A DNA stretch of 64,000 nt. Source: Desulfomicrobium sp. ZS1 (GTDB taxonomy: Bacteria > Desulfobacterota > Desulfovibrionia > Desulfovibrionales > Desulfomicrobiaceae). A program made the translations under genes and the position numbers. Shown here one piece after another: positions 13,247 to 15,708 of the stretch (within the stretch, counting starts at the first letter, position 1; each line of letters opens with the position of its first letter). The DNA is taken from NCBI RefSeq assembly GCF_024204645.1, contig NZ_CP100351.1, positions 3,250,001 through 3,314,000 of the forward strand, given 5' to 3'. Under the pieces are notes generated by a model, which ran no database searches, was not told where the DNA came from, and worked only from the letters and a program-made list of their open reading frames with translations.

Positions 13247-14188
13247 ATGGATATTCTCTCCCTTTTTCTCGAAACCGGATTCTGGCTGGCCACCGTGCGC
13301 ATGGCCACCCCGCTCATCTTCGGCACCATGGGCGAACTGATCTGCGAACGGGCCGGGGTACTGAACCTCGGCATCGAAGGCATCATGGCCGCAGGCTGCA
13401 TGTCCGGCTGGACCTGGGTCTTCCTCGGCGGCACCCTCTGGGGCGGCGTGCTCTTCGCCGCCTGCGTCGGAGCGGCCCTGGGCCTCCTCCACGCAGTCTT
13501 CACCGTGCACCTCGGCCTGTCCCAGCACGTCACGGGCCTCGGCATCACCATGCTCGGCGCAAGCCTCAGCTCCTTCGTCTTCCGCATGGTCCTGCCCCAG
13601 GTCACCACCCCGCCCAAGATCATCCCCTTCGCGCCGCTGGACATCCCCGTGCTCTCCAGCCTGCCCTTCCTCGGCCCGGTCCTCTTCAGCCAGACGGCGC
13701 TTACCCTCCTGGCTTTCATCCTGGTCGGCGTCACAGCCTACGTGCTGCTGCGCACACCCCTCGGCCTCGCCCTGCGCATGGTCGGCGAAAACCCGCTCGC
13801 CGCCGAAGCACAGGGGCTCTCCGTCCTGGCCTTACGCACCGGCGCGGTCATGGTCGGCTCCGCCTTCATGGCCGTGGGCGGCGCATTCCTGACGCTCGCC
13901 GCCTTCGACGCCTATTACATCGGCATGGTCAACGGTCGCGGCTGGATCTGCATCGCGCTCGTCGTCTTCTCCTCCTGGAAACCAGGCAAGGCGCTCCTCG
14001 GCGCGCTCCTCTTCGCCGCCTTCGACGCCATCCAGATGCGCGTACAACAGCAATCCATCTCCGCCATCCCATACCAATTCTACCTGATGCTCCCCTACCT
14101 CTGCTCCATCCTCGCCCTCATCACCATGTCCAGCAAAGCCGCCTACCCCAAGGCCTTGCTGGTTCCCTTCCGCAAGGGTGAGAGGTAG
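13247..14188 (+). CDS. ABC transporter permease, nucleoside type (NupQ/YufQ-like)
   Basis: 313 residues, about eight to nine membrane segments. Second permease of the pair. The motifs GELICERAGVLNLGIEGIM, GLALRMVGENPLAAEAQGL and GMVNGRGWICIALVVFSSWKP are typical. It begins one base after the first permease ends. Structured repeats follow before the deaminase gene, so codA may be a separate or a modulated transcription unit. Confidence 0.92.
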   Translation: MDILSLFLETGFWLATVRMATPLIFGTMGELICERAGVLNLGIEGIMAAGCMSGWTWVFLGGTLWGGVLFAACVGAALGLLHAVFTVHLGLSQHVTGLGITMLGASLSSFVFRMVLPQVTTPPKIIPFAPLDIPVLSSLPFLGPVLFSQTALTLLAFILVGVTAYVLLRTPLGLALRMVGENPLAAEAQGLSVLALRTGAVMVGSAFMAVGGAFLTLAAFDAYYIGMVNGRGWICIALVVFSSWKPGKALLGALLFAAFDAIQMRVQQQSISAIPYQFYLMLPYLCSILALITMSSKAAYPKALLVPFRKGER

Positions 14189-14207
14189 AGGGGGAAGGAG
14201 AAGAGAC

Positions 14208-14295
14208 GCGGGGCGCTGCCCCGCACCCCGCAAGGGGCGCGCCCCTTGACCCGATTATTGGGATGCAGGGGATGTGTCCCCTGCCCGCCGGAGGC
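14208..14295 (+). repeat. Structured intergenic repeat, copy 1
   Basis: About 88 bases made of three back-to-back hairpins: GGGGC/GCCCC around 14210-14222, AAGGGGC/GCCCCTT around 14232-14247, and CAGGGGA/TCCCCTG around 14266-14284. The end is CCCGCCGGAGGC. A second copy starts 119 bases later in the same orientation. Such units are commonly dispersed in intergenic spaces of Desulfovibrionales (recollection, not checked). Confidence 0.75.
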
Positions 14296-14326
14296 TTTCT
14301 TAAATAGACACTGCGCGGTAGAAGAA

Positions 14327-14413
14327 GCGGGGCTCCGCCCCACACCCCGCAAGGGACTCGTCCCTTGACCCTGTCAGGGGTGCAGGGGGATTATCCCCCT
14401 GCCCGCCGGAGGC
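14327..14413 (+). repeat. Structured intergenic repeat, copy 2
   Basis: Second copy with the same order of hairpins: GGGGC/GCCCC, AAGGGAC/GTCCCTT, and CAGGGGGAT/ATCCCCCTG, ending CCCGCCGGAGGC. Several bases differ from copy 1, but the changes are paired so each stem is kept. It lies 27 bases before the ATG of the cytosine deaminase. Confidence 0.75.
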
Positions 14414-14439
14414 ACTCTTATTTCATCGAGGTGATTATC

Positions 14440-15708
14440 ATGCTGGATTTGCTTATCATCAACGCCGCCCTGCCTGGGGAGGAGGCGCTAGTCGAGATTG
14501 GCTGCAAGGATGGCCGGATTGTTGCGGTAGAACCGAGTATCAAGGCTGAGGCGGCTCAGGTCATTGACGCCAAGGGATATCTGGTGACCCCGCCTTTCGT
14601 GGACAGCCATTTCCATATGGACGCGACCTTGTCGGCGGGCTTGCCGCGCCGGAATGAGACCGGCACGTTGCTGGAAGGGATTCGGATTTGGGGCGAGCTC
14701 AAGCCTGATCTTACGCCGGAGGCCATCAAGGACCGGGCCATGAAGCTGCTGCGTTGGTCCGTGGCCAAGGGCAATCTGGCCATCCGCACCCATGTGGACA
14801 CGACGGACCCGAGCCTCATGGCCGTGGATGTGCTGCTTGAGGTGCGCGAGGAGATGAAGGATTTCGTGGACATCCAGCTGGTGGCCTTTCCCCAGGACGG
14901 GGTGTTGCGCGCCCCGCGCGGGGTGGAACTGCTGGAGCGGGCCTTAGACAAGGGCGTGGACGTGGTCGGCGGCATCCCGCATTTCGAGCGGACCATGGAT
15001 CAGGGCCGGGAGTCGGTGCGCGTGCTGTGCGAGATCGCGGCAAAGCGCGGACTCATGGTCGACATGCACTGCGACGAGTCCGACGACCCGCTTTCCCGGC
15101 ATGTGGAGAGCCTGGCGTTTGAGACGCAAAGGCTGGGGCTGCAGGGCCGGGTCACGGGCTCGCATCTGACGAGCATGCACTCCATGGACAATTATTACGT
15201 GTCGAAGCTGTTGCCGCTCATGGCCGAGGCGGGTTTGCACTGCGTGTGCAACCCGCTGGTGAACATGAACCTGCAGGGCCGCCACGACACGTACCCCAAG
15301 CGGCGGGGGCTCATGCGCGTGCCGGAGCTGATGGGCATGGGCGTCAATGTGGCCTTCGGACACGACGACGTCATGGACCCCTGGTATCCCATGGGATCGC
15401 ACGACATGCTCGAAGTGGCCCATATGGGCGCTCACGCCCTGCACATGACCGGCGTGGATGGACTGCGGAAGATGTTCCGGGCCGTGACGGAGAACGGAGC
15501 GCGAGTGATGGGGTTTGAAGGCTACGGCCTTGCGCCCGGCTGCAGCGCAGACATGGTCATCCTGCAGGCCGCAAGCGAGCTCGAAGCCCTGCGCCTGCAC
15601 CCGGCACGGCTGTGGGTCATCCGGCGCGGCAAGGTCATAAGCCGGACCCCGGAAGTGGTGGCCAGCGTGGAGTTGGGAGAAGGCGAGGAGTTGGTGGATT
15701 TTACATAA
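14440..15708 (+). CDS. codA: Cytosine deaminase / amidohydrolase (CodA-like)
   Basis: 422 residues. Metal-dependent hydrolase that converts cytosine to uracil and ammonia. The CodA metal and catalytic residues can be seen: DSHFHMD (about 55-61), HCDESDD, SHLTSMHSMDN and GHDDVMDPWYPMG. The last block is nearly the same as in E. coli CodA, where its first Asp is the metal-binding catalytic residue. The ATG at 14440 has GAGGTG upstream; the open frame further 5' runs through the repeat. It follows a nucleoside-type importer, so the two likely form a pyrimidine salvage pathway. Confidence 0.88.
   Translation: MLDLLIINAALPGEEALVEIGCKDGRIVAVEPSIKAEAAQVIDAKGYLVTPPFVDSHFHMDATLSAGLPRRNETGTLLEGIRIWGELKPDLTPEAIKDRAMKLLRWSVAKGNLAIRTHVDTTDPSLMAVDVLLEVREEMKDFVDIQLVAFPQDGVLRAPRGVELLERALDKGVDVVGGIPHFERTMDQGRESVRVLCEIAAKRGLMVDMHCDESDDPLSRHVESLAFETQRLGLQGRVTGSHLTSMHSMDNYYVSKLLPLMAEAGLHCVCNPLVNMNLQGRHDTYPKRRGLMRVPELMGMGVNVAFGHDDVMDPWYPMGSHDMLEVAHMGAHALHMTGVDGLRKMFRAVTENGARVMGFEGYGLAPGCSADMVILQAASELEALRLHPARLWVIRRGKVISRTPEVVASVELGEGEELVDFT

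Follow-up and report, generated by a model that had tools for sequence, protein, structure and literature searches.

The window (the whole stretch of 64,000 nucleotides of Desulfomicrobium sp. ZS1, genome G000, that was analysed) contains two repeat units between a set of transporter genes, encoding a Bmp-type binding protein, an ABC ATPase and two BPD_transp_2 permeases, and the amidohydrolase gene codA. The units, at 14208-14295 and 14327-14413, are each about 88 nt long and are composites of two palindromic modules, A and B, which face each other. Module A consists of hairpin-ACCC-hairpin-ACCC and module B, read towards its gene, of a purine-rich leader, GCCTCCGGCGG, a variable perfect stem and ACCC. 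The features of the site, in window coordinates, are the following:

13247-14188, + strand: upstream permease gene (BPD_transp_2), with its stop codon TAG at 14186..14188.
14189..14207, + strand: purine-rich leader AGGGGGAAGGAGAAGAGAC, between the permease stop and the first hairpin (from the sequence).
14208..14252, + strand: module A of copy 1, with hairpin 14208-14224, ACCC, hairpin 14231-14248 and ACCC (from sequence and folding).
14261..14295, - strand (its gene-sense strand): module B of copy 1, with GCCTCCGGCGG, stem 14265-14284 and the tag ATCC, a variant of ACCC (covariance-model match G000:C1:3264261-3264295, 48.8 bits).
14327..14371, + strand: module A of copy 2, with hairpin 14327-14343 (one C-A mismatch), ACCC, hairpin 14350-14367 and ACCC (from sequence and folding).
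14378..14413, - strand (its gene-sense strand): module B of copy 2, with GCCTCCGGCGG, stem 14382-14402 and ACCC (covariance-model match G000:C1:3264378-3264413, 53.8 bits).
14440..15708, + strand: downstream amidohydrolase gene (codA; Amidohydro_3), from a domain match.

Module A alone comes after a stop codon here, whereas the GCCTCC end of each B module faces codA or copy 2. On the codA side of the two B modules lie TTTCTTAA and ACTCTTAT, which hold 5 and 4 T in 8 bases, respectively. Two sigma-70-like matches (9 of 12) were also seen, against 0.2 expected, at 14365-14394 (+) and 14434-14462 (-), the former within copy 2 and ahead of codA.

The copies are direct repeats over 49 nt (86% identity, spacing 119) and over another 35 nt (83%, spacing 118), and each folds as four hairpins, three of them strong and the central one weaker, so that the repeat search and the folding bear out the two direct copies of three hairpins each described here by a first-pass annotation made from the letters of the DNA. 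Their RNA-fold z-scores were -2.51 and -2.83, with 5/200 and 2/200 dinucleotide shuffles folding equally well. In the DNA fold of module B alone, a 3-bp mini-hairpin, GCC(TCC)GGC, directly adjoins the main hairpin, whose stem is lengthened by GG/CC across a bulged A, while in the RNA fold of the whole unit CCCCG of module A pairs with CGGAGG of module B, so that the hairpins are enclosed in a single structure. The same annotation had held that differences between the copies are paired so as to keep the stems, which is true of the pairs that it quoted (AAGGGGC/GCCCCTT becoming AAGGGAC/GTCCCTT, and CAGGGGA/TCCCCTG becoming CAGGGGGAT/ATCCCCCTG) but not of the first hairpin of copy 2, where the C-A mismatch is uncompensated and is present in 5 of 12 orthologous units. 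Among these 12 codA-site units a single pair varies on both sides (A-U in 6, G-C in 5, other in 1), counted on the first two hairpins alone because the alignment of the site (A2) misaligns the B stem. Since only this one pair changes on both sides, the codA site by itself offers little covariation, and the repeat family yields far more.

Comparison of 16 genomes of the genus showed that all eight species with both codA flanks in one contig keep either two units (G000, G033, G019 and G026) or one (G025, G030, G020 and G031); the remaining eight genomes have the flanks on separate contigs, one flank alone, or none. In G035, which belongs to a different genus of the family, both flanks are present and the unit is absent. 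The type of the first hairpin tells copy 1 from copy 2. By eye, the centre and the B hairpin are in reversed order in G033 relative to G000, and G025 has a copy-1-like left flank joined to a copy-2-like hairpin; this exchanged order and this mixed unit suggest that swapped cassettes probably account for part of what differs between the copies. The elements also persist at the same gene ends between species elsewhere, as 10 of 11 tested G000 loci have both flanks matched in an element-bearing locus of G033. The eleventh, which follows a gene that we take to be secA from its last residues, corresponds to a decayed remnant in G033 and to the head alone in G020. At three G033 sites the element is absent from G000, with the spacer replaced, and the other species show mixed presence and absence. 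Comparison of missing sites between sister genomes revealed no clean recent insertion paired with an empty site, the differences resembling decay or spacer replacement. Other repeats, of the GGGGCGAAAAAT..CGCCCC, GGATTCCCGCCTGCGCGGGAATGAC and TATAGGTCCTATAGG types, fill spacers in which module B is absent or decayed (L333, L348, L351, L366).

We searched the unit against this genome and its relatives and built a covariance model. DNA search and model together (E 0.01) located module B at 148 places in 11 of the 16 genomes of the genus, 14 of these places being in G000. Because other genomic copies exist and their stems are mostly intact, the outcome that the first-pass annotation had named as contrary to its proposal, uncompensated stem changes in most other copies, or no other copies together with no transcript, was not what we observed. 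A pattern scan of named genomes gave at least 120 loci with module B, most of them matches to a pattern in which the six outer stem pairs and the GGAGGC side are preset; the taxa among the 80 titles listed are Desulfobacterota (including Desulfomicrobium, Desulfovibrio and Desulfoluna), Alphaproteobacteria (Sphingomonadales and Acetobacteraceae), Clostridia, Puniceicoccales and a few less resolved names. Rows with at least 5 of 8 Watson-Crick pairs were retained, 99 from the genus, orthologous sites included, and 177 from other taxa. Under stricter filters, just 6 of 394 genomes in a phylum sample carry module B, G000 included, and in 3 of these 6 the match spans 51-57 bases, that is, with an insert. 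All 18 genomes picked as carriers had covariance-model matches, from 4 to at least 150 places each, and one carrier genome of 0.9 Mb holds 114. This distribution, patchy yet numerous, fits that of a mobile repeat.

Variants of the module were observed in several places. A repeat array with a period of about 273 bp and one module B in each period occupies G000:C1:655400-661500 (L289), and relatives have similar arrays; an extra hairpin is inserted in the stem region at L216:2102-2200, L221:2009-2108, L039, L299 and L300; and in Clostridia and a Desulfovibrio (L068, L107, L132, L113, L143) module B is linked in series with a further hairpin that resembles an inverted module A. A mini-ORF with its ATG at the leader junction was dropped because inspection by eye showed no conservation of it beyond the genus. 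The 531 crude ORFs lying no more than 2.5 kb from the pattern at the 120 loci listed include no gene neighbour common to four or more loci, a count that a rare autonomous locus could escape. A plasmid and phage search with E up to 1 matched 13 plasmid records and one phage record, where two plasmid places, both within annotated genes, align with 85-88% of the query (86-87% identity, E 0.9) and the phage place with 68%; we took the matches as chance. Four viral contigs match the module B pattern.

The placement of module B relative to genes is strongly oriented. A same-sense stop codon lies within 30 nt of the GCCTCC end in 58/90 genus rows and 71/145 others, against 3/90 and 8/145 in the mirrored test at the ACCC end, once 8 genus rows and 32 others had been set aside for lying near the end of a locus. 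No such stop was detected in that interval in 32/90 genus rows and 74/145 others. Under a 100-codon rule the same bias was obtained in the genus (59/91 at the GCCTCC end vs 8 at the other end), in Alphaproteobacteria (37/64 vs 4), in other Desulfobacterota (13/23 vs 1) and in loci beyond the titles listed (20/51 vs 4), with too few rows in Clostridia (2/6, other end 1) and Puniceicoccales (0/1). Gene ends were set by a simple ORF and GC3 rule rather than by annotation, and a spurious row (L026) was excluded from the stop-codon, 100-codon, stem-pair, U-run and relaxed T counts. A cruder first count had placed 71/155 sites within ORFs that were presumed spurious, and true intragenic copies are thus outside the count.

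The leader between stop codon and module is purine-rich, with 84% purine at 53 genus sites and 68% at 66 others, for stops 5-30 nt away, compared with 52% after 1116 control stops (from overlapping loci) and with 48% and 44% beyond ACCC. Such a leader means a T-rich tail on the opposite strand, and at least 4 T of 8 follow GGAGGC there in 65/98 genus rows (random 17/490) and 66/177 others (random 55/885). After ACCC, the same relaxed threshold is reached in 11/98 and 89/177. Strict U-runs (6 T of 8) are rare on either side, both after ACCC (0/98 genus, 21/177 others) and after GGAGGC (5/98 and 5/177). By a strict rule, a terminator-like hairpin stands beyond the copy in 5/98 genus rows and 2/177 others, so module B is not always the terminator, and one copy itself sits past a terminator-like hairpin.

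We then considered what keeps the stems paired. Because the outer pairs were preset by the search pattern, the inner pairs are the informative ones. In 135 cores of 19 bases from other taxa, the seventh pair is GC in 72, TA in 25, AT in 20, CG in 17 and GT in 1, and the eighth is Watson-Crick in 133; in 79 genus cores of 20 bases, the eighth is AT in 43, GC in 31 and something else in 5. The ninth pair of these genus cores, whose formation would leave a loop of 2 bases, is unpaired in 13/79 (9 C-A, 1 T-G) and was excluded from the G-U tally. In an alignment of 51 sequences (A1, selected from 73 distinct sequences for a stem of at least 5), four of five covariation measures exceed all 500 shuffles, the fifth is reached by 14/500, and all exceed slid versions. 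Mismatches among the retained rows comprise 6 G-U vs 12 A-C, and a hand tally of cores of 19-21 bases gave 7 vs 11 (p 0.48). RNA selection through wobble intermediates would predict an excess of G-U, the opposite of this tally, although the sample is small and not decisive.

These stems, nearly all Watson-Crick and with no G-U excess, may therefore owe their covariation to template switching in the DNA and to cassette exchange as well as to selection. The strongest alternative takes the former to its limit, with template switching and recombination keeping the palindromes perfect and no RNA selection at all, and we give it somewhat less than an even chance. The occurrence of all four Watson-Crick pair types and the near lack of intermediates, together with the apparent swapping of hairpin cassettes between the codA-site copies, agree with such a mutational origin, and sections of PMC8794818 describe template switching during replication as a mechanism that corrects palindromes. 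By itself, however, it leaves unexplained why the modules are oriented after stop codons, why their flanks stay constant from phylum to phylum and why they are retained at sites. The first-pass conclusion that there is selection on structure, and not just duplication, is consequently upheld only in part: the stems do covary across species and phyla, but the scarcity of intermediates, the mismatch tally and the apparent cassette exchange fit DNA-level correction as well.

It is rather improbable that the modules are ordinary intrinsic terminators whose recurrence reflects convergence. Module B resembles intrinsic terminators, including bidirectional ones, in its GC-rich hairpin after a stop codon and its T-enriched flanks, and three terminator-like sites occur on the - strand of 13900-14700 vs 0.6 expected. 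It differs from them in the rarity of strict U-runs, in the terminator-like hairpins beyond some copies and in the recurrence in distant phyla of a sequence frame, GCCTCCGGCGG plus ACCC, that the search pattern had for the most part fixed. We recognised no description of this frame in the open-licence literature; PMC8040213 reports 250 palindromic candidate RNAs, 230 of these being predicted terminators. The closest Rfam family at the codA site that we considered, RF02937 (Clostridiales-2 RNA), has as its first part, GGGggUGcaGgGG..CCcCugCC, the tag and hairpin of module B as they read on the antisense strand, and scored 25.4 bits (E 0.00041 for 251 bases) against a gathering score of 58.6, whereas its 3' part (a 34-nt insert and GUCGAAGGGAAc) is not GCCGGAGGC. 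None of the 8 carrier genomes searched has RF02937 above the gathering score; at E 1 it also matched in 10 of 14 control genomes, always below the cut-off, and gave no match in four clostridial loci with module B.

The best likeness is to REP and BIME repeats. As described in parts of PMC3733652, the GTAG and CGTC superfamilies are dispersed palindromes of 20-40 nt with an end tag, often in opposite-orientation pairs and near the 3' ends of ORFs (in two species, most convergent REPs lie at <20 bp), where a RAYT gene (Y1_Tnp) flanked by the repeat defines GTAG REPs and CGTC REPs are without a known transposase. Module B is likewise a short, dispersed, many-copy palindrome near ORF 3' ends, and opposite-orientation pairs are found in the window units and as facing pairs in L066, L075, L096 and L099. 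It differs in that one side bears the tag GGGT/ACCC, in place of GTAG or CGTC, and the other a constant GCCTCCGGCGG. Judged from these sequence features, the module B repeats look like a new branch of REP repeats, REP-like with a new tag.

This resemblance in size, tag-plus-hairpin form, facing pairs and position might suggest a classical REP mobilised by a RAYT, the Y1 tyrosine transposase, but we consider that very unlikely. Y1_Tnp was not found in 11 of the 18 carriers, which weakens the idea, and only 1 of 29 Y1 loci scanned carries a clear element (L196), so RAYT is unsupported as the mobiliser. L199 has the tag string only, and L188, L201, L204 and L205 have a GCCTCCGGCGG-like string that lacks a clear stem and ACCC; L201 may be a degenerate copy. 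No module B was found at the two Y1 loci of G000 (L185 and L186, at G000:C1:3517917 and 2423392). L185 lies between inverted GGGGTCAAGTCTTCTTTTGACT-like flanks, which are unlike module B.

There is equally little chance that the repeat is a selected structured RNA whose job is the regulation of codA: its retention in all eight species and the T-rich bases codA-ward of the B modules speak for this, but the same modules stand at many other gene ends, no Rfam family attains its gathering score at the site, and G035 has both flanks without the unit. Because the same module stands at the ends of many other genes, the repeat is no dedicated codA regulator. The T-rich TTTCTTAA and ACTCTTAT after the B copies nevertheless make it plausible that read-through into codA is attenuated, and an effect on codA is thus possible, one that would not be specific to this gene. 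A reading of the hairpin plus ACC as RNase P-related or tRNA-like is an idea only.

We favour, with a probability of about 0.55, the reading that the feature consists of two copies of a composite built from dispersed REP-like palindromes which act as gene-end punctuation. The palindrome at gene ends, transcribed from either strand, would fold into hairpins with pyrimidine- or U-rich tails. These hairpins could serve as a partial terminator or attenuator of transcripts that read on, here from the transporter genes into codA, and could act likewise on antisense transcripts entering the gene. Alternatively or in addition, they may block 3' exonucleases; 3' protection is known for E. coli REPs. 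Copies would be spread and refreshed at the DNA level, by tandem duplication, recombination between copies and hairpin-templated repair, and not by a resident RAYT. A bolder and rather doubtful extension is that these repeats form a third superfamily of tagged palindromes, with a GGGT/ACCC frame and RAYT-free spread across phyla, placed or retained in one orientation after stop codons and guarding gene ends against read-through and antisense transcription as a small, easily moved module.

Should the favoured reading hold, a single compact module of constant frame stands at gene ends in distant phyla, kept as a near-perfect palindrome with hardly any G-U intermediates, and most of the tested carriers are without the transposase expected for GTAG REPs. 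With such a family one could ask concretely how repeats of this kind spread, and whether RNA selection or DNA repair lies behind their compensatory changes.
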